A DNA stretch of 47,895 nucleotides from Acidimicrobiales bacterium (GTDB taxonomy: Bacteria; Actinomycetota; Acidimicrobiia; Acidimicrobiales; RAAP-2), in NCBI GenBank assembly GCA_015478655.1, contig JADMIJ010000024.1:1-47895 (forward strand). The letters are read 5' to 3'. This document shows, in pieces, positions 12,121 through 25,122 of this stretch. The translations under genes and the position numbers were made by a program. Positions within the stretch are counted from its first letter, which is position 1; each line of letters begins with the position of its first letter. The notes under the pieces are model-generated. The model had not been told where the DNA came from. It saw only the letters and a program-made list of their open reading frames with translations, and ran no database searches.

Positions 12121-13724
12121 GGCCGTCGTCGCCACCCACCATTGCCATCGTGGGAGGCGGGATCGCCGGGCTGGCCGCGGCATGGGAGCTGGTGAAGGAC
12201 GCGGACGGGGGCGACCACACACCGGTGGAGGTCCACCTCCTCGAAGCCGGTGACCGGGTCGGAGGCAAGCTCCGGTCGGCCGACTTCGCCGGACGGCGGG
12301 TCGACCTGGCGGCCGATGCCTTCCTGGCCCGTCGGCCCGAGGCCACGGCGCTCTGCCACGAGCTCGGTCTCACCGAGGACCTGGTCCCGGTGGGCGCCTC
12401 CGGTGCCTCCGTCTGGGCTCGGGGTCAGCTCCGACGGCTCCCGGCGGGCTTGAACCTGGGCGTCCCCACCCGGTGGTTGCCCCTGTTCCGCTCAGGAATC
12501 CTGAGCCCCGGCGAGTCGCTCCGGGCTGCGAGGGACCTGGTCGCGCCGCATCGGGGTGACCAGACGGCAGATGACGACCGGTCGGTCGGAGCCATCGTGG
12601 GCGAACGCCTCGGCCGCCCGATCGTCGAACGGCTGGTGGATCCGCTCGTCGGGGGCATCAACGCCGGGAGGGTGGATGACCTCAGCGCCGCGGTGACCTT
12701 TCCCCAGCTGTTGGCCGCCTCCCGGCAGTCCGGGAGCCTGATGCGCCGGCTGGCACAACCCCCTGCCGGCGCCGACGGATTGTCTCCCCCCGAGCCCGGC
12801 CCATTGTTCTGGTCGTTGTCGGGGAGCACGGCGAGCCTGGCCGACTCGTTGGCCGAGGCTCTGTCCCGACGCGGGGTCACCATCCACACCGGCGTGTCGG
12901 TGCGGTCCGTCGAGCCCCACCCCGACGGCCCGTCCGGCGCGCCGCAATGGGAGCTGGCCCTGCAGGGCACCGATGGCTCGGAGCAGGAGACGGCCGGCCG
13001 GCCTCACGATCCGCCATCCCTGCGGGCGGACCGTGTCATCCTCGCCGTGCCGGCCGGCGAGGCTGCCGTCCTGGTGGGCCCGCATGCGCCGGAGGCCGCG
13101 GTCCTGCTCGACTCCATTGCCTACGCCTCGGTGGCGGTGGTCACCCTGTCGGTCCCGAGGCGGGCCATCCGAGCCCCACTTCGAGGAACCGGCTTTTTGG
13201 TGCCGCTGGCCTCTCCCATCGCCGGCGGTCCGGCCCTGATCACGGGATGCACCTACCTGGCGCGGAAATGGCCGCACCTGGCGGGGGCGGATGACGAGCT
13301 GCTGCGCGTGTCGGTGGGGAGATCCGGGGATTCCCGGCACCGCGACCTGAGTGACGACGAGCTGACCGCCTCGGCCTTCGGCGAGTTGACCGAGCTCCTC
13401 GACATCCGGGACGTCCCCCTCGATTCATTGGTGACCCGGTGGGACGAGGCCTTCCCCCAGTACGCCGTCGACCATGCCACCAGCGTGGGACGCATCGAAC
13501 GGGCTGTGGCCGCCCTCGGGAGTGTGGCCGTGGCCGGCGCCGCCTATGGAGGGGTGGGGATCCCGGCCTGCATCGGCAGCGGCCGGGCGGCGGCGCGTCG
13601 GATGCTCGACTCCCTCTCCCTCGACTCCCTCTCCCTCTCCCCCGGATCCGGCTCCCCCGGATCCGGTGCGAGCGGATCCGATGCGAGCGGTGACGAGCCC
13701 GCCCCCCCGGAGCTCGGGAAATGA
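12117..13724 (+). CDS. hemY: Protoporphyrinogen/coproporphyrinogen III oxidase (FAD)
   Basis: A 535-residue FAD enzyme oxidising coproporphyrinogen III (or protoporphyrinogen IX) to the porphyrin. Seen: the dinucleotide fold IAIVGGGIAGLAAAWEL (9-25), the Glu of HLLEAGDRVGGKLRS, FADAFLARRPEA-type substrate-domain sequence, PLVGGINAGRVDDLSA in the middle, and the C-terminal FAD contact VAVAGAAYGGVGIPACIGSG. The start is GTG overlapping the hemH stop. The last 35 residues are a Ser/Leu/Gly/Asp repeat encoded by tandem 15-bp units and are not part of the enzyme fold. In actinobacteria the soluble coproporphyrinogen oxidase form (CgoX) is expected. It overlaps lnt by 4 bp. Confidence 0.92.
   Translation: MRPSSPPTIAIVGGGIAGLAAAWELVKDADGGDHTPVEVHLLEAGDRVGGKLRSADFAGRRVDLAADAFLARRPEATALCHELGLTEDLVPVGASGASVWARGQLRRLPAGLNLGVPTRWLPLFRSGILSPGESLRAARDLVAPHRGDQTADDDRSVGAIVGERLGRPIVERLVDPLVGGINAGRVDDLSAAVTFPQLLAASRQSGSLMRRLAQPPAGADGLSPPEPGPLFWSLSGSTASLADSLAEALSRRGVTIHTGVSVRSVEPHPDGPSGAPQWELALQGTDGSEQETAGRPHDPPSLRADRVILAVPAGEAAVLVGPHAPEAAVLLDSIAYASVAVVTLSVPRRAIRAPLRGTGFLVPLASPIAGGPALITGCTYLARKWPHLAGADDELLRVSVGRSGDSRHRDLSDDELTASAFGELTELLDIRDVPLDSLVTRWDEAFPQYAVDHATSVGRIERAVAALGSVAVAGAAYGGVGIPACIGSGRAAARRMLDSLSLDSLSLSPGSGSPGSGASGSDASGDEPAPPELGK
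13605..13696 (+). repeat. 15-bp tandem repeats at the 3' end of hemY
   Basis: Two copies of CTCGACTCCCTCTCC (13605-13619, 13620-13634), two of CTCCCCCGGATCCGG (13637-13651, 13652-13666) and two diverged TGCGAGCGG units (13667-13681, 13682-13696). Because units are 15 bp, copy changes keep the hemY frame and only alter a low-complexity tail (LDSLS, PGSGS, SGSDA). Confidence 0.7.
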
Positions 13725-15451
13725 GACCGGAGTCGCCGCCGCTGACGCCCGCTCCTGCGCCGGTCACCGACGGTTCGCAGGTTCCGCCCTGGCGACCGTC
13801 GCGGGTCACCATGACCCGGCGCCGGTCCGACACGGGGGTGCCCGGACGAGGGATGGTGGCGATCCCCGCCCTGGCCTCGGGCGCCGGCCTGGCTCTCTCC
13901 CTCCCCCCATGGGGGTGGTGGCTCCTGGCCTTCCCCAGCGCCGGACTGCTCTGGTGGCGACTGGGTGGCCTGCGCCCCCGGACCAGGTTGTGGGCCGGTT
14001 GGCTGGCCGGCCTCGGTTGCTACGTACCCGGCCTCATGTGGGCGCGGTCATTCACCATCCCCGGCGCCATGGTCCTGATCGCCGTGGAGGCGTCGTTTGT
14101 GGCGGTGGCATGCCTGCTCGTCCCCCCGGGGCCCGCCGCGGCCCGCGCCCTGGCGTTCCCGGCGGCCATGACCCTGGCGGAAGCGGCGCGGACCTCCTGG
14201 CCGTTCGGCGGGCTGCCCATCGGCGGCGTCTTCCTGGGGCAGGCGGGAGGGCCCGTGCTCGGCGTGGCCCGGCTGGGCGGCCCGCTGGCGTTGACGGCGG
14301 CGGTCTACGTCGGCGGGGTGGGACTGGGGGCGCTGGTGGGAGCGGGACTGCGGGCCTGGCGCGACGGTGCCCGAGTGCGATGGTTCGGGCAGAACGTTCC
14401 GGCCGGAGGACCCGCACCCGGGGAACGGACCGGCGCGGTGGTGGCCGGCGCGGTCGCAGGACTCGGGACGCTGGTTCTGGTCGGGGCCATCGCCATCGGC
14501 GCGCTGGTGGGCGTCTCGATCGGTGCCGACCACGCACCCGATGGAGGCCCGTCGATCGGTTCCCTCTCCACCGCCGCGGTGCAAGGGGGAGGGGTGCGGG
14601 GATTCCGCAAGTCCCAGGTCGACCCCCGGGTGGTGCTGGCCGCCCAGGTGTCGGCCACCGCTCGCCTGCAGCAGCTCGACCACGGCACCGCCCCCCAGCT
14701 GGTGCTGTGGCCAGAGGATGTGGTGTCCCTCGACACGGCCCTCTCGGACTCCTCGGAGGAGGCCGTGCTCTCCAACCTGGCCCGCACTCTGCACACCACC
14801 TTGGTGGTGGGGATCACCGAGACCATCGCCGCCACCACCTTCCTCAACGAAGTGGTGGCGTGGGGTCCCGACGGGGCCCTCGTCTCGCGCTACGAGAAGG
14901 TCCACCGCGTCCCCTTCGGCGAGTACGTGCCGTACCGCAGTGTGTTCGCCCACCTGGGCGACCTGACCGCCGTCCCCCTCGACGCCGTGCCGGGTACGGG
15001 AACCGGCCTGTTGCCCACGCCGGCCGCCCCCCTCGGGACGTTGATCTCCTACGAGGTGTTCTATGCCGACCGGGGACGTGCGTCGGTGCGCGACGGCGCG
15101 CAGCTGTTGATCGTCCCCACCAATACCTCGTCGTATGCCACGGCCCAGGTCCCCACCCAGGAGATCGCCGCCTCAAGGGTCCAGGCCGTCCAGCAGGGGC
15201 GCGATCTCCTCCAGGCGGCGCCCACCGGGTACAGCGCGACCATCACCAATCGCGGCACGTTGCTGCAGCGCTCGGTGCTTGGCAGACAGCAGGTCATCCT
15301 CGCCACGGTCTCCCGGCGCGGCGGGTGGACCCTGTACGTCCGCTACGGGGACACGCCTCCCCTGGGTCTGGCGGCGGTGGCCCTGGCGGGCGGGTGGTTC
15401 CTCGCCGGAAGGCGGGACCGTCGCCGAGGGACGCCCGCCCCAGTGGTGTGA
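13721..15451 (+). CDS. lnt: Apolipoprotein N-acyltransferase with Ser in place of the catalytic Cys
   Basis: A 576-residue membrane protein: several N-terminal helices, then a periplasmic carbon-nitrogen-hydrolase domain and a last helix, as in Lnt, which adds the third acyl chain to lipoproteins. The catalytic triad positions are E332 (LWPED), K393 (RYEKVHRVPFGEYVP) and, where a Cys is expected before YE, S443 (LISYEVFYAD). The acyl-thioester Cys is thus missing. The rest of the nitrilase fold (NTSSYATAQVPTQEIAASR, VQVAPTGYSA-like) is intact. It may be an active Ser variant, a non-acylating homologue, or an actinobacterial subfamily with another task. It overlaps hemY by 4 bp as the last gene of the hem operon. 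Confidence 0.82.
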   Translation: MRPESPPLTPAPAPVTDGSQVPPWRPSRVTMTRRRSDTGVPGRGMVAIPALASGAGLALSLPPWGWWLLAFPSAGLLWWRLGGLRPRTRLWAGWLAGLGCYVPGLMWARSFTIPGAMVLIAVEASFVAVACLLVPPGPAAARALAFPAAMTLAEAARTSWPFGGLPIGGVFLGQAGGPVLGVARLGGPLALTAAVYVGGVGLGALVGAGLRAWRDGARVRWFGQNVPAGGPAPGERTGAVVAGAVAGLGTLVLVGAIAIGALVGVSIGADHAPDGGPSIGSLSTAAVQGGGVRGFRKSQVDPRVVLAAQVSATARLQQLDHGTAPQLVLWPEDVVSLDTALSDSSEEAVLSNLARTLHTTLVVGITETIAATTFLNEVVAWGPDGALVSRYEKVHRVPFGEYVPYRSVFAHLGDLTAVPLDAVPGTGTGLLPTPAAPLGTLISYEVFYADRGRASVRDGAQLLIVPTNTSSYATAQVPTQEIAASRVQAVQQGRDLLQAAPTGYSATITNRGTLLQRSVLGRQQVILATVSRRGGWTLYVRYGDTPPLGLAAVALAGGWFLAGRRDRRRGTPAPVV

Positions 15452-15978: not shown

Positions 15979-16476
15979 TTACTCGTAGTACCCCGAGTGG
16001 ATGTACACGCACGGGATCCTCTCGCCATGGAACATGGCGAAGTTGTTGGGGTCGTCTTCGAAGGCCAACCTCAGGTCGAACCCGTAGGACCGCAGCTCCT
16101 CGACGCTGTCCCGCTTGAACCAGGTCACCTGCGAGTAGTCGCCGCGGGACCGCATGACCAGCAAGTCCCATCGGAGCCCGTAGCGGTCCAGCCAGGCCAG
16201 TGTCTGGGGTTGCACCCGCATGGGCCGACCGGTGAGGAGGATGACCTGCAGGCGCGAGTCCAGCAGCTCGAGGACCCGGGCGAGCTCCTCGATGACCGGG
16301 TCGTCGCCGCAGGCGTCGAAGAACCGGTCCCAGTCGCGTCGGCCCCGCTCGAGGAAGTGCTGGCGCCCGACGGCGTCCGACAGCACACCGTCGACATCGA
16401 AGATCACCGCCTCACCGGGCGCATGCAGGGGCGCCTGACGCCAGGCCCAGTTGGACGGACCTGTGACCGTGCTCAC
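15979..16476 (-). CDS. HAD-superfamily phosphatase (polynucleotide-kinase 3'-phosphatase-like)
   Basis: A 165-residue HAD-fold protein. Seen: motif [10 protein letters not shown] (26-34) with nucleophile D27 and acid/base D29, motif II LLTGRP (80-85), a Lys at about 121 (FKRDS) and motif [11 protein letters not shown] (138-145). There is no cap domain, as in the 3'-phosphatase part of phage T4 polynucleotide kinase or in small NIF-like phosphatases. The substrate is unknown. Its ATG overlaps the acsA stop by 4 bp, so it is co-transcribed with acetyl-CoA synthetase, which does not by itself suggest a function. Confidence 0.8.
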
Positions 16477-18587: not shown

Positions 18588-18596
18588 GGAGGGGCT

Positions 18597-21500
18597 GTGA
18601 CCGTGACAACGCAATCGTCGGAGGGGCTCAGGCCTGACGGTCTGACATCAGGCGTCGAGCTCACCGCCTTCTCCCCTGAGCCCGGTGCGACCCGTGTCGA
18701 GGTACCGCTGGGCCGTCGGGTCATGGTGGTCAGTGACCTGCTCCTCACCCCCGACGCCACGCCGACGTCGTCGGCGGTCACCGCCGAGGTGGCCCGCGCC
18801 CTCGACACTTGGGACGGTCCCGGGATCCTCATCATCGCCGGCAACCTCTTCGACTTCACCGACACCGGATCACCGTTGTCCCAGGCCCAGCGGTCCCTGG
18901 GCGCCCACCCGGCGCTGGCCGACGCACTGGCCCGCTTCGCCACCATCGACGAGCGGCGGGTCATCCGCCAGACCGGCACCCACGAGCCCGGCTACGACAC
19001 GGACCCCGAGACCATCGAGGCCATGGCCCACCGGGGCGTCGAGCAGCTCGGACCGGTCGATCTCCACCTCCACACCGCCACCGGTGTGCGGGTGGTGCGG
19101 GTCGAACCTGGCGAGCACGCCTACGCCTCGGGCTGCAGCGGGCCGGAGACGGAATTCGACCCGGCGGCCGACGCCAAGCCCGGGGCCGTCGGGCACTCCT
19201 CGGCCGGGAGGGCCTGGCGATCGCTGGCGGCGCGGTCGACCGACGACGCCCTCTGGCTGGTCGGGCTCAGTCGCCTGAGCGACCCGTCGGCCCTGTCGCG
19301 ATTCGTGGTCTCGCGCACCCTGTACCGGCGGCTCGGGCGCTACGCGTGGTGGCTGCTGGTTCCGTTCGTGGTGGCCGGCCTGCTGCGGGTGGCGGTCACC
19401 CCGTGGGTGCTCGGCCACATCGGGTCGGGCCTGCCGGCCCGGGCCATTCGAAACGCCCACCGGGCCGACCTCGGCGATCAGATCGTCATCGCCCTCCTGG
19501 TCGCCCTGGTCGTGCTGGCTGTCCTGGCGCTGGTGCTGGGGCTGCTCAGCCGGCGCATGTGGTCCATCCTCGGGGGAGGATCCTTGGAGACGGTCCAGTC
19601 AGAGGCGACGGCCAACGACACCGCCCGGGACGCTGGTCGCCGCCTGGTGGGGCGGGGCTACGCCGGCCTGATCACGGCGGCTACGTTCCAGTCGGAGCTC
19701 ACCCACCTCGGTGTGGGCTTCTACGCCAATGTCGGGGCCACCGCCGAAGTGGTGGAAGAACACCGGGGCCGGCTGGGGCTTCCCCCGGTGTTCCTGAACA
19801 ACCAACGGGTGAGCTGGGTCGAGCTGGAGACCGGCGCCGAGCTGCACGTCCGGATGCTGTTGGCCCGCAACGAGCTCCGGTCACCGAGCCTGCTTGAACG
19901 TCTGATCACCCGGGGGAGGAGCATTCGGAGCCTCCACCCGGCCCTGGTGGCCTCATACCCCATGGGCGCATCGTGGCCCGCGGCCCCCGACTTCCACCTC
20001 GTCCACCGGCGGACCCGGAGACGACGGCGCCTGGCCTCGGCGGCCATCCTCGTGGCCGGGGTCATCGACCTCCTGGATGCGGTCACCCCGCCCCTGCGCG
20101 GGCGCTTGCACGTGGTACTCCAGTACCTGCCCCTACGGGCCAGTGTGGCCGCCGGAGCCCTCATCGCCATGGCCGGCCTCGCCCTGGTGGCGCTCGGCCG
20201 GGGCATCCTGCGCGGACAGCGGCGGGCCTGGCGGGTGGCGGTCACCCTGCTGGCGGGCACCATCATCCTCCACCTCATCGCCGGGGCCGACATCGAAGAG
20301 TCGGCGGTGGCGCTGGGGGTGCTGGTACTGCTGGTCGTCAGCCGGGGGGACTTCCAGGCGGCCTCGGACTCGTCGTCGCTCCGATCGGCGCTCCTGGCCA
20401 TCGGCATCGGGGTGATCGGCATCACGCTGGTGACCACGGTCTCGATCGAGGCCTTCACCCATATGGGACACCACCGATCGCACATCCCATGGTGGACCGC
20501 CCTGTGGGCGGTGTCCGAACGGCTGGTCGGCATCAAGACCATCCCCCTCCCCGAACGGGCCGACCGCTTTCTCGCCCCCACCCTGTTGGCCCTCGGCCTG
20601 TCCCTGGTGGCCGTGGTCCTGTTCCTCTTCACCCGACCGGTGGTGGACCGCCGGCTCACCTCGGGTCGGGCGGCCGAGTTCCGGGCCCGCGACATCGTCC
20701 GCCGCCACGGCGCCTCGACGCTCGACTACTTCGCCCTCCGTTCCGACAAGAAGTGGTTCTTCCACCGGGACAGCCTGGTGGCCTATGCGGTCTACGGGGG
20801 AGTCTGCCTGGTCTCCCCTGATCCCATCGGACCCCGGAACGAACGCGAGCAGGTGTGGGGATCCTTCCGCCGCTTCGCCGACAGCCACGGTTGGGTGACT
20901 TCGGTCATGGGTGCCGGCGAGGACTGGCTCTCGATCTACCGGGACTCGGGGATGCACAACATCTACCTCGGGGACGAGGCCGTGGTGAAGGTCCAGCCCT
21001 TCACCCTGGCCGGCGGTGACATGAAGGGCCTGCGCCAGGCATTCAACCGGATCAAGAAACGCGGCTACACGGCTGCGTTCTACGATCCCGCCCACCTCGA
21101 CCCGGCACTCTCCCAGGAGTTGACGGCCCTGATGGCAATGAGCCGACAGGGCGAGCACGAGCGAGGGTTCTCCATGATGTTGGGGCGGGTGTTCGACCCG
21201 AGGGACACCGGCCTCCTGTTGTGCGTGGTCCGTTGCCCGAACGGCGCTGCCTCCGCCATGTGCCAGTTCGTGCCGGCTCCGGGGATCAACGGCTATTCCC
21301 TCGATCTGATGCGCCGTGACCCGGGTGACCACCCCAACGGGCTCTTGGACTTCGCGTTGTGCTCGACCATCGAGCACCTGCGCGCCGACGGCTACCAGGG
21401 CCTGAGCCTCAACTTCGCCGCCCTCCGCTCGACACTTTCCGGCGACAAGGGTGAGGGCACGGTGCAGCGGGCAGAGCGGTGGTTCCTGAAGCGATTGTCC

Positions 21501-21857
21501 AACTTCGCCCAGATCGAGTCGTTGTGGCGGTTCAACGCCAAGTACGAGCCCGAATGGCTCCCCCGCTACGTGGTGTTCGACAGCGCCGAGCATCTCGTGC
21601 CGGTCGTCATGGCCATCCTGCGGGCCGAGTCCCTGTGGGAGATCCCGGTCCTCGGGAGGTTGTTGGCCGCCGGCGCGGAAAAGCGCATGGTGGCCGCCCA
21701 GCAGGAGACCGAAGAGTTCATCGCCGCATCATTCGGCCAGTGGGATGACAACGGCGAGCGCGTCGAATCGGCGAGCGTCAATGGCGGCCACACCGATGAC
21801 GGCCCGGTCAGGGGTCGCCCACCGACGGTGTCGGGCTCGTCGGGCCCTGCGGCCTGA
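18597..21857 (+). CDS. Pseudo-metallophosphoesterase fused to MprF-type lysyltransferase domain (DUF2156)
   Basis: A 1086-residue multidomain membrane protein. Residues 40-230 and 345-410 look like the two halves of a calcineurin-like phosphoesterase, split by two membrane helices (about 250-275 and 297-317). Every metal motif is altered: SDLLL (46-50) where DLH is expected, GNLFDF (82-87) for GD, GTHE (127-130) for GNHD and AATF (361-364) for GHTH. About six further helices follow (478-680), then a C-terminal domain (690-1015) of the MprF/DUF2156 type with YFALRSDKKWFFH, VSPDPIGP, QPFTLAGGDMKGLRQAFNR and RAERWFLKRLSNFAQIESLWRFN. Known MprF proteins move an amino acid from aminoacyl-tRNA to phosphatidylglycerol and flip the product, lowering surface charge. 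Here the dead phosphoesterase may sense or scaffold. Start GTG 18597; the frame is open upstream but runs antisense to acsA. Confidence 0.8.
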   Translation: MTVTTQSSEGLRPDGLTSGVELTAFSPEPGATRVEVPLGRRVMVVSDLLLTPDATPTSSAVTAEVARALDTWDGPGILIIAGNLFDFTDTGSPLSQAQRSLGAHPALADALARFATIDERRVIRQTGTHEPGYDTDPETIEAMAHRGVEQLGPVDLHLHTATGVRVVRVEPGEHAYASGCSGPETEFDPAADAKPGAVGHSSAGRAWRSLAARSTDDALWLVGLSRLSDPSALSRFVVSRTLYRRLGRYAWWLLVPFVVAGLLRVAVTPWVLGHIGSGLPARAIRNAHRADLGDQIVIALLVALVVLAVLALVLGLLSRRMWSILGGGSLETVQSEATANDTARDAGRRLVGRGYAGLITAATFQSELTHLGVGFYANVGATAEVVEEHRGRLGLPPVFLNNQRVSWVELETGAELHVRMLLARNELRSPSLLERLITRGRSIRSLHPALVASYPMGASWPAAPDFHLVHRRTRRRRRLASAAILVAGVIDLLDAVTPPLRGRLHVVLQYLPLRASVAAGALIAMAGLALVALGRGILRGQRRAWRVAVTLLAGTIILHLIAGADIEESAVALGVLVLLVVSRGDFQAASDSSSLRSALLAIGIGVIGITLVTTVSIEAFTHMGHHRSHIPWWTALWAVSERLVGIKTIPLPERADRFLAPTLLALGLSLVAVVLFLFTRPVVDRRLTSGRAAEFRARDIVRRHGASTLDYFALRSDKKWFFHRDSLVAYAVYGGVCLVSPDPIGPRNEREQVWGSFRRFADSHGWVTSVMGAGEDWLSIYRDSGMHNIYLGDEAVVKVQPFTLAGGDMKGLRQAFNRIKKRGYTAAFYDPAHLDPALSQELTALMAMSRQGEHERGFSMMLGRVFDPRDTGLLLCVVRCPNGAASAMCQFVPAPGINGYSLDLMRRDPGDHPNGLLDFALCSTIEHLRADGYQGLSLNFAALRSTLSGDKGEGTVQRAERWFLKRLSNFAQIESLWRFNAKYEPEWLPRYVVFDSAEHLVPVVMAILRAESLWEIPVLGRLLAAGAEKRMVAAQQETEEFIAASFGQWDDNGERVESASVNGGHTDDGPVRGRPPTVSGSSGPAA

Positions 21858-21926: not shown

Positions 21927-22820
21927 CTACGGCGCAGGAAGGCCGATCGGGTTGGGGAACGGGATGACCCCGGCGGCCGCCACCGACCGGACCAACGGCC
22001 GCAGGCTCTCGAGCACGGCCAGCTGTTCCTCGTCCTCGAGGACGGCGTAGGGACGGCCGGCCAGCTCGTCGGTCAACTGCTCGACCCAGCGACGGAGTTC
22101 GGCGCCCGCTGGGGAGATCTGCCCGCCCGCCACCAGCCCGCGATCCTCCAGCCGGCCGCGGGCAGCTTCCCACTCGTCGGGCGACCACCCCCGGCTGTCG
22201 CGAAAGAGGGCGCCGGGGATGCCCTCCGACAGCGCGAACAGGACCAGGGCCTCACATCCGTCCAGTCCGCCGGCAGTCAGGGCGGCGACATGGCCGTCGC
22301 CGCGGTGCTCTCGGAGGCTGGTACAGGCCTGCCATAGTTCCTCGACCGGAGCGCCGGGCCCGCCGGCCTCGTCGACCTCACCGAGGGCGCGATTGGCGCT
22401 GAACAGCACACGACCCGAGCCGTCAGCGGCGCCCACCACACGATCCAGCCATGGGAGGAGCGCTTCCGCGCGCTGATCCACCGACGGGTCCATGCGGCGC
22501 AATGCCGCCGCGGCCCCGGTGCGGCGGGCCCGCAGAATGGAGGAAGGGTCGGCATACGTCCACGCATCGGGGATGGCTCGGCGCACCTGCGTCTCGTGGA
22601 AGTTGAAGAAGGTGGCCGAGACGGTCGCCGGGCCCACCGCGCCCAGTGGTACAGCCCGGGCCGCGAAGTAGCCCATCCAGAATCCGCGCAGCCCGACGGC
22701 GGTCAGCGCCTGGCGGCACTCCGGGGCGAAGTAGGTCACGGCGTGGAGCGGCTCGACGCACCTCCACCACGTCCGTGCATCCGGCCGGTCCGGATGCGGG
22801 CGGTCCTGCGGCGCCGTCAT
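21927..22820 (-). CDS. SCO6745-family protein
   Basis: A 297-residue protein resembling the actinobacterial SCO6745 family, a group of all-helical proteins of unknown role. Seen: an N-terminal ARTWWRCVEPLHAVTYFAPECR (about 15-36), GFWMGYFAARAVPLGAVGP (45-63), the helix with FNFHETQVRRAIPDAW (72-87), and a C-terminal half that reads like a winged-helix module (LRRWVEQLTDELAGRPYA). I infer the family from these segments. The enzyme or regulator role is unknown. The ATG 22818-22820 overlaps the stop of the preceding membrane-protein gene by 4 bp, so both are probably made from one mRNA. Confidence 0.7.
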   Translation of the reverse strand: MTAPQDRPHPDRPDARTWWRCVEPLHAVTYFAPECRQALTAVGLRGFWMGYFAARAVPLGAVGPATVSATFFNFHETQVRRAIPDAWTYADPSSILRARRTGAAAALRRMDPSVDQRAEALLPWLDRVVGAADGSGRVLFSANRALGEVDEAGGPGAPVEELWQACTSLREHRGDGHVAALTAGGLDGCEALVLFALSEGIPGALFRDSRGWSPDEWEAARGRLEDRGLVAGGQISPAGAELRRWVEQLTDELAGRPYAVLEDEEQLAVLESLRPLVRSVAAAGVIPFPNPIGLPAP

Positions 22821-24163
22821 TCCGTCCTGGAGGCGCCCCCGGGGTCCAGCCCCGTCGTGACCTCGGGCTCGTCGGTAGCACCGGCGTCGCCGGTTCCCTC
22901 TCCGGGGCCCGTGTGGGCGGGGACCGGGTGCTGCCCGGCATAGAGGCCGACGATCCCGGCCAGCGCCAGGGCCACCAGGACCACGATCACCGCCACCATC
23001 GCCGTCGGCTCGTTCCACACCGCCAGGATCAGCAGTCCCGCTCCGAGCGCACCCCACTGGAGCGCCTTCCGATGGGCCACGACAAAGTCGTGTACGGGTC
23101 CCCCGGTCATCCAGCCCGGCCTCTTCCTGGTGCCCAGCCACGCCCTGACCCGCCGGTTGCCGACCAGTGCGCCGCCGATGGCGACGATGGCGGCCACGAT
23201 GGCCAGTGTGCGGACGGAGTCGAGCAGGAGCGCACTGACGGCGTCGATCACCGCCGCCGCCGCCGGCTTCGATTGGGAAGGGTCCAACGAGTTGAGGACC
23301 TGGTTACGCCCCAGCGACGCCACCACCAGCACCAGGGCCATGGAGAGGGCGAGCCCGGTGGCGGCACGCACCAGCCCCCGCCGACGGTCCCGGTTCAACA
23401 GCACCGATCCGGCAAAGCACAGGAGGGTCACGATGGGCAGCACCAGCGCCAGATGATTGAGGAACCGGGTGAGACGCTGGGCCTTGGCCACCTGGGTCGA
23501 GCGGAACAGCACCAACTGGGGCCCCTTGTTCGACGGGACCTTGTCGAACACGGTGATGCCCTTGGCGTCGAGGGCCTTCTTGGCCTGGGACTCGACCTGG
23601 GACAGGTCCAGGGTGACCTGGCCGTTGCTCGACTGCAGTGCGCCCTCCTTCGACCCGGTCAAGAGGGCCACCACCTGCTTGTGGGTCGACCGGTTGGCGG
23701 CGATCCAGAGCGTATGGAAATGGGGGGACTGGACCAATTTGAGTGTGATCTGCTCCGTCACATTCTGCAGTCCCGCGGTGATCGGAGTGGCCAGAAATCC
23801 GGCCTTGGCGGGCAGCGCCTGCTTGACCTGTTGATTGACATTGGTCCGCGCGATCAACCGCTGGCTGACCCGGTGGGCCACCGCAGACTGGATGGCCGGG
23901 TCGTCGGCCAAGGGGGCGACGGTGCTCACGTAGGCATCGGTGTTCAGCAGCTCGTTGCGTACGAACACCACGAACACCGACACCACGGCGAGGATGCAGG
24001 CCAGTACGACGAGCAGCCACGAGGAGAGCCGCCTCCATCGACTGCCGCGCTGCTGCTTCCGGGTCAGGGCCTCCGACTGGCGAAGCGCCTCGTTCTCCTC
24101 ACGAAGCTCATCCACCGTCCGCTGGAGTCCCTCCACATCATCGCCCTCCCCCTCGGCGGTCAC
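22817..24163 (-). CDS. Integral membrane protein of unknown function with N-terminal coiled coil
   Basis: A 448-residue protein starting at GTG 24161-24163 (AAAGGG about 10 bp upstream). Residues 8-40 are a charged heptad-like helix (ELREENEALRQSEAL), residues 48-70 are a membrane helix, and residues 75-235 are an extracytoplasmic domain with the block NTDAYVSTVAPLADDPAIQ. Three or more helices follow (about 237-257, 265-285, 318-338, 372-405). A hydrophilic tail ends it. This layout is common in actinobacterial membrane proteins with no assigned role. I see no catalytic motif. It is coupled by a 4-bp overlap to the SCO6745-like gene. Confidence 0.75.
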   Translation of the reverse strand: MTAEGEGDDVEGLQRTVDELREENEALRQSEALTRKQQRGSRWRRLSSWLLVVLACILAVVSVFVVFVRNELLNTDAYVSTVAPLADDPAIQSAVAHRVSQRLIARTNVNQQVKQALPAKAGFLATPITAGLQNVTEQITLKLVQSPHFHTLWIAANRSTHKQVVALLTGSKEGALQSSNGQVTLDLSQVESQAKKALDAKGITVFDKVPSNKGPQLVLFRSTQVAKAQRLTRFLNHLALVLPIVTLLCFAGSVLLNRDRRRGLVRAATGLALSMALVLVVASLGRNQVLNSLDPSQSKPAAAAVIDAVSALLLDSVRTLAIVAAIVAIGGALVGNRRVRAWLGTRKRPGWMTGGPVHDFVVAHRKALQWGALGAGLLILAVWNEPTAMVAVIVVLVALALAGIVGLYAGQHPVPAHTGPGEGTGDAGATDEPEVTTGLDPGGASRTE

Positions 24164-24370: not shown

Positions 24371-24766
24371 TTAGGTGAGCAGCTTGGCCTTCTGCGCCTC
24401 GAACTCGGCATCGGTGAGGACGCCCTTGGACTTGAGGTCAGCCAGCTTGGCCAGTTCATCGGCGCTGCCCCCGGTCGTCCCGGCGGCCTGCTTCACGTAG
24501 GAATCGAACGCCTTCTGCTGCTGGGCGGCGGCGGCGGCGGCGCGCTCGTGCATCTTCCCACCCCGGGCGATCAGGTAGACGAGGACTCCGAGGTACGGAA
24601 CGATGATGACGAAGAGGACCCAGAGGGCCTTGGCCAACCCGCCCATGTCGTGGCTCCGGAAGATGTCGGCGAAGATGACGATGAGAAGCCAGATCCAGAG
24701 GAAGAAGATGAAGAACTCCAACATCGTCCAAAAGATGCTCAGCAAGGGATAGGTGTACGCAAGCAT
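24371..24766 (-). CDS. Small membrane protein with PLDc_N-like helices and SHOCT domain
   Basis: A 131-residue protein. Two membrane helices (about 7-35 and 44-66) form a PLDc_N-like hairpin ending in VPYLGVLVYLIARG; a KMHERAAAAAAQQQKAFDSYVKQ linker follows. The final 30 residues are a SHOCT motif (ELAKLADLKSKGVLTDAEFEAQKAKLL), a short helical element found at the C-termini of many proteins and thought to mediate oligomerisation. The ATG at 24764-24766 has AAGGAG 9 bp upstream. The gene stands alone, 207 bp from the next gene on its strand. Confidence 0.85.
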   Translation of the reverse strand: MLAYTYPLLSIFWTMLEFFIFFLWIWLLIVIFADIFRSHDMGGLAKALWVLFVIIVPYLGVLVYLIARGGKMHERAAAAAAQQQKAFDSYVKQAAGTTGGSADELAKLADLKSKGVLTDAEFEAQKAKLLT

Positions 24767-25122
24767 GTTCACGCCGCTCCTTCGTTGTGGATGACGAAAC
24801 ACCCTACCCCTTCGATCTTGCTCTTTCCCGGACTCGCCGCCCTCCGGCCAGGACTTACGCCTGATCCGAGACTCGTCACCGCCCCATGCCATGACTGCCG
24901 GGAACCCCCCTCGCGGCGCCAAAGCCACCTAGTGTCCACGGAAGTGAGATCCACGGACGTCGGGGAATCGGTGCGTATCGCTGGCACATCACACGTTCGC
25001 TGCCGGCCATCGGCGTCGACACAGGCGGCTCCGCCCGATGGGCCGGGATGGATGGTCAGGGTCGGTTCGCAGCACTTCGCGGGATCGATGCGGGTCCCGG
25101 CGCATCGGCCGGCGGCCCGGGA
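24767..25122. other. Gap between the SHOCT gene and the ClC gene
   Basis: No domain-bearing gene. The plus strand holds TAGTGT (24930-24935) and, 8 bp later, a GTG (24944) that opens a 60-codon frame whose TGA overlaps the ClC ATG as ATGA at 25123-25126. This could be a translated leader or an alternative transcript start; its peptide has no recognisable fold. TAGGGT-like sequence also lies upstream of the SHOCT gene on the minus strand. Confidence 0.35.
24930..24935 (+). promoter_or_regulatory. Candidate -10 element (TAGTGT) upstream of the ClC gene
   Basis: TAGTGT is followed by 8 bp and a GTG that opens a short frame reaching the ClC start codon. It fits the -10/start spacing seen before other genes here. 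Confidence 0.3.

Follow-up and report, generated by a model that had tools for sequence, protein, structure and literature searches.

Organisation of the fused gene

The subject of this analysis is one gene on a 47,895-nucleotide stretch of DNA (contig JADMIJ010000024.1 of assembly GCA_015478655.1, positions 1 to 47,895, hereafter called the window) from an Acidimicrobiales bacterium with a draft genome of 4.47 Mb. The gene lies at 18597–21857 on the forward strand, stop codon included, and encodes 1,086 residues, which are laid out as a split metallophosphoesterase (MPE) domain enclosing a two-helix membrane hairpin, followed by six membrane helices and a full LPG_synthase_C domain of the MprF/LysX type. 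Open reading frame, frame and stop agree with an earlier reading by a model from the sequence alone (the original prediction). By direct reading, a Shine-Dalgarno-like GGAGGGG (18588–18594, forward strand) precedes an in-frame GTG at 18603 by eight bases and the GTG at 18597 by only two, and because of this better spacing the start at 18603, which gives 1,084 amino acids, is the likelier one. The closest named relatives of the protein were found in Acidimicrobiales metagenome-assembled genomes. An artefact of assembly or frame was ruled out, as the entire architecture (residues 28–1030) could be aligned with 23 relatives taken from other records.

Synthases of the MprF type are important for the charge of the membrane and for resisting cationic peptides; in MprF itself the N-terminal partner is a flippase. 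In the window protein, PF09924 (LPG_synthase_C, MprF-type aminoacyl-lipid synthase) covers residues 700–993 (20694–21575, forward strand) with E 2e-68 and 231.1 bits against a curated cut-off of 27.5, running nearly end to end (profile positions 3–297 of 298), which bears out the MprF-type C-terminal domain that had been predicted. No second PF09924 copy was found in the draft genome. The six membrane helices before it (residues about 478–685; 20028–20651, forward strand) are of the synthase type as well, as they are reached by alignments with the NCBIfam models LysX, the best match (residues 471–1042, E 9.7e-89, model positions 13–597 of 1102), and MprF (residues 478–1009, E 1.4e-77), and by PF16995 (E 2.4e-4), all of them under their cut-offs (298.7 of 742 bits for LysX and 261.8 of 600 bits for MprF). 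The gene probably encodes a membrane enzyme attaching an amino acid to membrane lipids. The MprF flippase module (PF03706) gave no match in the window protein at E up to 1, and six PF03706 places were found elsewhere in the genome. The protein ends soon after the synthase, with no Pfam match to a LysX-type C-terminal lysyl-tRNA synthetase domain, and no match to the LpxH equivalog PRK05340 (NCBIfam) was listed for it.

Ahead of the synthase region and on the same strand, the N half of the MPE-derived domain comprises residues 31–172 (18687–19112) and the C half residues 340–455 (19614–19961), and the strands and helices of the N half also appear in a domain model. Between the halves, and thus inside the phosphoesterase fold, the domain model and hydropathy place the hairpin at about residues 248–327 (19338–19577). 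The total of about eight membrane helices that had been predicted is confirmed by a full-length model of low confidence, in which the hairpin contributes two and the stretch ahead of the synthase six, and by hydropathy. The latter marks the same membrane regions; within the group of six some of its segments overlap, and a weak additional one shows at 992–1019.

Descent of the N-terminal domain and erosion of its metal site

By the evidence of profiles and a structural model, the N-terminal part is a metallophosphoesterase by descent, since its profile matches intact free-standing MPEs, LpxH is the best match of its model, and some fused relatives have intact motifs. The profile was built from the N-terminal part of the window protein and its relatives (24 rows, none with more than two of the seven metal ligands). 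It matches 43 of the 396 phylum genomes sampled (best E 4.9e-11), many of the matches being free-standing proteins in frames of mostly about 440–520 residues. Fourteen free-standing MPEs were fetched (L074–L087) and 12 of them aligned, leaving out L082, which is identical to L081, and L083, which was little covered; L074, the one of this set scanned with Pfam, matches PF00149 over its cut-off (E 3.7e-12). When the two alignments were compared by hhalign, they matched with 99.5% probability (E 9.3e-23) over 393 columns, pairing degenerate with intact motifs as SDLLL/SDxHI, AGNLFDF/AGDFFDF, GTHE/GNHD, VEPGE/CEHGN and AATF/GHTH. Each part matches separately, with E 3.5e-14 for the N half (residues 28–200, 98.2%), E 2.9e-6 for the C half (residues 337–478, 88.2%) and E 1.4e-5 for the hairpin. 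The controls were negative: all 10 column-shuffled alignments stayed at or below 4.7% probability, and the synthase domain reached 0.4%.

An AlphaFold model of the domain, built from the same 24 rows, had a pLDDT of 75.6 and a pTM of 0.76. Its best Foldseek match in the PDB was LpxH (5k8k, E 5.9e-4, probability 1.00), followed at ranks 2–11 by Mre11, Vps29, 5'-nucleotidase and GpdQ (E 0.006–0.016) and at rank 12 by an unrelated protein. Common ancestry and fold thus place the domain in the calcineurin-like MPE superfamily, and the predicted phosphoesterase relationship with a persisting surrounding fold holds. Family searches did not recognise it. PF00149 and PF12850 gave no match in the window protein or in any of the 24 N-terminal domains at an E limit of 10, at which HMMER filters drop most weak matches; no NCBIfam or Pfam model recognises residues 1–416 as a phosphoesterase; and the N-terminus, searched as a profile against PDB sequences, returned no phosphoesterase, the best match being a 105-residue chain around the hairpin (E 0.007). 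Taken alone, the family and PDB-sequence searches would have led to a wrong rejection of a phosphoesterase origin.

Members of the calcineurin-like MPE superfamily carry seven metal ligands in five motifs. In LpxH these are Asp8, His10, Asp41, Asn79, His114, His195 and His197 (PMC5016852). The window protein reads D47, L49, N83, T128, P171, A362 and F364 at these sites and so keeps one of the seven (Asp47), with the other six replaced. As placed by the ligand table and the profile alignment, all on the forward strand, motif I is DLL for DxH (18735–18743; His to Leu49), motif II GN for GD (18840–18845; Asp to Asn83), motif III GTHE for GNHD (18975–18986; Asn to Thr128, with His129 kept), motif IV PGE at residues 171–173 for HGH, HGD or HGN (19107–19115; His to Pro171) and motif V AATF for GHTH (19677–19688; both His lost). 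The original prediction had named four changed motifs and declared all metal motifs lost. The strings it listed are present (SDLLL at 46–50, GNLFDF at 82–87, GTHE at 127–130, AATF at 361–364 and GVGFYANVGA at 372–381) and the four motifs are changed; the fifth, PGE, had been overlooked, and with Asp47 retained the loss is not quite complete. From these replacements we infer that the domain no longer hydrolyses phosphoesters.

Erosion of the site is graded among the relatives. A ligand table was compiled for 58 fused proteins, the window protein included, after removal of duplicates (L033, L035, L072) and partly covered proteins (L022, L065, L073); further near-duplicates between collections may remain, and a gap counts as a lost ligand (one each in L051 and L055). 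All seven ligands are present in five of the 58 (L045, L047, L050, L068 and L069), whereas L070 keeps five, L057 four and L048 three, and the remaining 50, with the window protein among them, keep between none and two. The five intact proteins are distant fused relatives, which assigns the loss to part of the family and not to the fusion itself. Intact orthologues had been named beforehand as something that would speak against an inactivated domain; they do exist at this distance and are read here as support for its ancestry.

Nearby free-standing members L062 (genome G110) and L071 (genome G341) also have all seven ligands, and since no PF09924 match was found in these two genomes, the phosphoesterase presumably works there without such a synthase. 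L062 (6728–8626, reverse strand, in the single-contig genome G110) combines the seven ligands with a hydrophobic hairpin and is well suited to a search for the substrate of the ancestor. PF00149 was over its cut-off in all six intact proteins scanned (L045, L050, L068, L069, L062 and L071, with L047 outside the scan), under it in the partly eroded L070 and L048, and without a match in L057. In the outlying free-standing family, direct reading found the motifs in 13 of 13 rows, including the GD motif of L079 that a pattern search had missed.

In a tree of the MPE domain rooted on the free-standing family, the intact rows all fall outside a 50-row clade (SH-aLRT 97) that contains the window protein and in which every row is eroded or partly covered. 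This tree requires a minimum of three loss changes, or one if L070 and L062 are omitted, and the hypothesis that all eroded rows arose once was not rejected (p 0.28). The tree of the synthase part, with a poor root, requires a minimum of one change. All trees were quick ones, and those of the MPE domain include the motif columns. One to three losses of the metal site fit the data; the ancestral domain was probably catalytically active, with the activity eroding afterwards.

The eroded domain is, judged by substitution ratios, under purifying selection. Among 10 pairs of near, eroded relatives the ratio of nonsynonymous to synonymous substitution rates (dN/dS) was 0.16–0.32 in the N half and 0.07–0.21 in the C half, compared with 0.07–0.24 in the hairpin, 0.11–0.28 in the six helices and 0.03–0.20 in the synthase of the same pairs; that of the linker was higher (0.14–0.47). 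In a clade of 16 proteins with the window protein, the former ligand sites read D-L-N-(T/S)-P-A-F. Five of the seven are invariant there, against 89 of 261 domain columns (P 0.05), and six have one residue in 15 or more of the rows, compared with 108 of 261 columns (P about 0.02), both P values ignoring relatedness. D47, L49, N83, H129, E130, P171 and A362 are invariant in this clade, and invariant residues are spread throughout the domain in the 24 aligned rows.

Distribution and genomic neighbourhood

The wider distribution was assessed in 296 mostly draft genomes of the class, taken as Acidimicrobiia. The profile of the MPE-derived domain matches in 37 of them and PF09924 in 72. Except in G110, a single open frame contains both in the genomes with the domain (36 of 37), so that half of the sampled class genomes with the synthase domain (36/72, out of 296) carry the phosphoesterase-derived module in the same chain. 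A search for the same fusion in related genomes, which the original prediction had proposed, thus found it in 36 class genomes, and 58 fused proteins were counted as described above. A stand-alone active copy, proposed along with it, did not turn up in the genome of the window (about 93% complete), where the profile finds only the window protein itself and two other PF00149 places do not match its phosphoesterase family.

Upstream on the reverse strand, at 15979–16476, lies a small gene for a HAD-type phosphatase (PF25109, E 7.8e-10) with DVDGV and LLTGRP strings, which we take to be HAD motifs. In 22 of the 37 genomes such a gene lies on the same contig within about 3 kb of the domain match, often directly divergent from it. 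The domain matches next to it are all eroded, the one in G102 being partly covered (cut by a contig end). Among these mostly draft genomes, eight have it at a distance or on a different contig, including the intact-site genomes G197, G212 and G225, and in seven, including the intact G110, it was not found. The gene is perhaps a functional partner or perhaps only part of a shared gene order. The adjacency is a lead and not evidence, because the gene is widespread in the class (102/296; 30 of the 37 genomes with the domain and 72 of the 259 others) and because adjacency follows one part of the tree.

Three other neighbours were noted. An apolipoprotein N-acyltransferase-like gene (LNT_N and CN_hydrolase) lies upstream at 13721–15451 on the forward strand, with similar open reading frames in 18 of the 37 loci compared. 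On the reverse strand, a 448-residue open reading frame at 22817–24163 had no Pfam match at E 0.01 (similar frames in 12 of the 37), and a 185-residue protein with PLDc_N and SHOCT is encoded at 24371–24928 (similar frames in 9 of the 37).

Possible role and comparison with known systems

About an even chance is given to the reading that the gene encodes a synthase of the MprF/LysX kind whose MPE-derived N-terminal half, now without its metal site, serves as a pseudoenzyme platform that positions the synthase and perhaps gates it. This half would have descended from an LpxH-like, membrane-anchored metallophosphoesterase that then lost its two-metal site. The pseudoenzyme most likely holds the synthase at the cytosolic face of the membrane: anchored by its hairpin, the domain would lie where MprF has its flippase subdomain and would position the synthase on the membrane, and the old substrate pocket, now fixed in a different form, may still serve as a docking site for a lipid head group and make aminoacylation dependent on the lipid present. 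A precedent for a phosphoesterase fold retained as a protein scaffold is Vps29. In MprF the synthase is cytosolic, where it can use aminoacyl-tRNA, and contacts the cytosolic surfaces of both membrane subdomains, that of the flippase included (PMC8131360). With six helices before the synthase and two in the hairpin, both MPE halves should by analogy share its cytosolic side. The counts of Lys and Arg in the 15 residues ahead of the helices (five for the first, three for the second and six for the third) agree modestly with this placing.

Several points weigh against the platform reading. The full-length model is poor (pLDDT 65.6, pTM 0.46), contacts between the domains were not seen in it, and sensing and mere support fit the data alike. 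In Foldseek only LpxH passes E 0.001, and the alignments have a high rmsd because of the membrane hairpin. The enrichment of fixed residues at the former ligand sites is weak, and with Asp47 and His129 retained, some residual metal binding may persist. Nor does every relative need the MPE-derived domain: of the 72 PF09924-bearing genomes in the class sample, 36 show no match to it, and L026 (5923–7716, forward strand) is a 598-residue synthase without a match to the domain anywhere in its 13.7 kb locus. L026 groups among the fused rows on the synthase tree, the root of which is poor, and may have lost the whole module.

A tentative further reading is that the ancestral fusion was a two-step enzyme: a cytosolic, membrane-anchored phosphoesterase resembling LpxH would have produced the acceptor lipid, for instance through removal of a phosphorylated head group, and handed it to the synthase of the same chain for aminoacylation. 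In the lineage of the window the first step would have been lost and the domain would now act as a head-group gate. If this were true, the family would show in nature how a pseudoenzyme arises, with graded stages still alive, and would provide a new control of aminoacyl-lipids without a flippase module.

A rather doubtful rival is a regulatory sensor, in which the old pocket of the inactivated domain would take up a ligand, either a soluble nucleotide or the phosphorylated head group of a lipid, and thereby switch the synthase on or off. It is favoured by the motif loops, fixed in their new form at the seven invariant positions of the clade of 16, and by the lipid X held in a crevice of LpxH (see below), whereas the residues of the pocket vary from one eroded clade to another (DLNTPAF versus DSNSAGP, for example), so that no single shared ligand site is evident. 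Unlikely is a relic in decay, a useless domain that persists merely through its fusion; it would account for the wide variation of ligand residues across eroded relatives, for the variable linker with dN/dS of up to 0.47 and for L026, which does without the domain altogether, but is opposed by dN/dS of 0.07–0.32 across both halves and by residues invariant throughout the domain in the 24 rows as well as in the clade of 16. Less probable still is that the domain remains an enzyme whose site, either non-canonical or with a single metal, is built on Asp47 and His129: of the 50 fused rows with none to two ligands, 37 retain Asp47, and all 16 rows of the clade of the window protein retain His129, but six of the seven ligands are gone, among them the bridging Asp and, in motifs IV and V, all three metal-binding His. 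A chance resemblance of motifs in a protein that is no phosphoesterase, which the empty Pfam and PDB-sequence searches would suggest, has practically no weight and was rejected in view of the profile-profile match with its negative shuffled controls, the fold match, and the PF00149 matches and ligands of the intact relatives.

Whether or not the pseudoenzyme platform proves to be the right description, a series from seven ligands to none within one architecture makes it testable what a catalytic domain does for its partner after catalysis is lost, and the phosphoesterase substrate of the intact fused proteins (L045, L047, L050, L068 and L069) would reveal the lipid chemistry involved. No description of a fusion of an MprF-type synthase with a phosphoesterase was found in the full-text literature searched, with most subscription papers and bioRxiv preprints outside its coverage. 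Each module is known, while their combination and the erosion series look new.

Among known systems, MprF shares with the window protein the six-helix region and LPG_synthase_C, and phmmer aligns residues 482–996 with solved phosphatidylglycerol lysyltransferase chains (best E 2.5e-33). The window protein differs by having the MPE-derived domain and its membrane hairpin in place of the flippase subdomain. Vps29 uses a phosphoesterase fold as a scaffold, is not known to have enzyme activity and appears in the Foldseek list of the domain; it is, however, a eukaryotic retromer subunit and is not known to have a membrane hairpin or a fused enzyme. LysX, the lysyl-diacylglycerol synthase of Actinobacteria, gives the best NCBIfam match, but the window protein scores under its cut-off, lacks the lysyl-tRNA synthetase domain and has the MPE-derived N-terminus instead. 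LysX produces lysyl-diacylglycerol (Lys-DAG) in Corynebacterium and Mycobacterium species (PMC10580965). The acceptor of the window protein may be phosphatidylglycerol or, by analogy with LysX, diacylglycerol. LysX2 of M. tuberculosis is also MprF-like with an unusual architecture, but its MprF-like domain is extracytoplasmic and the available part of the report (PMC8974105) mentions no MPE domain.

The closest solved fold to the N-terminal domain model is that of LpxH, the UDP-2,3-diacylglucosamine diphosphatase. According to PMC5016852, its catalytic domain consists of residues 1–118 and 174–240, which bound a helical insertion, and the crevice between the catalytic and insertion domains holds lipid X. 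The hairpin of the window protein falls within the stretch bounded by the counterparts of His114 and His195 and thus occupies the slot of this insertion. A weak match to the LpxH model was obtained for the intact relative L045 (E 3.2e-5), far under the cut-off of the model (23.2 of 134 bits). In the window protein the metal site is gone, and the insertion, a soluble lid in LpxH, is a membrane hairpin.

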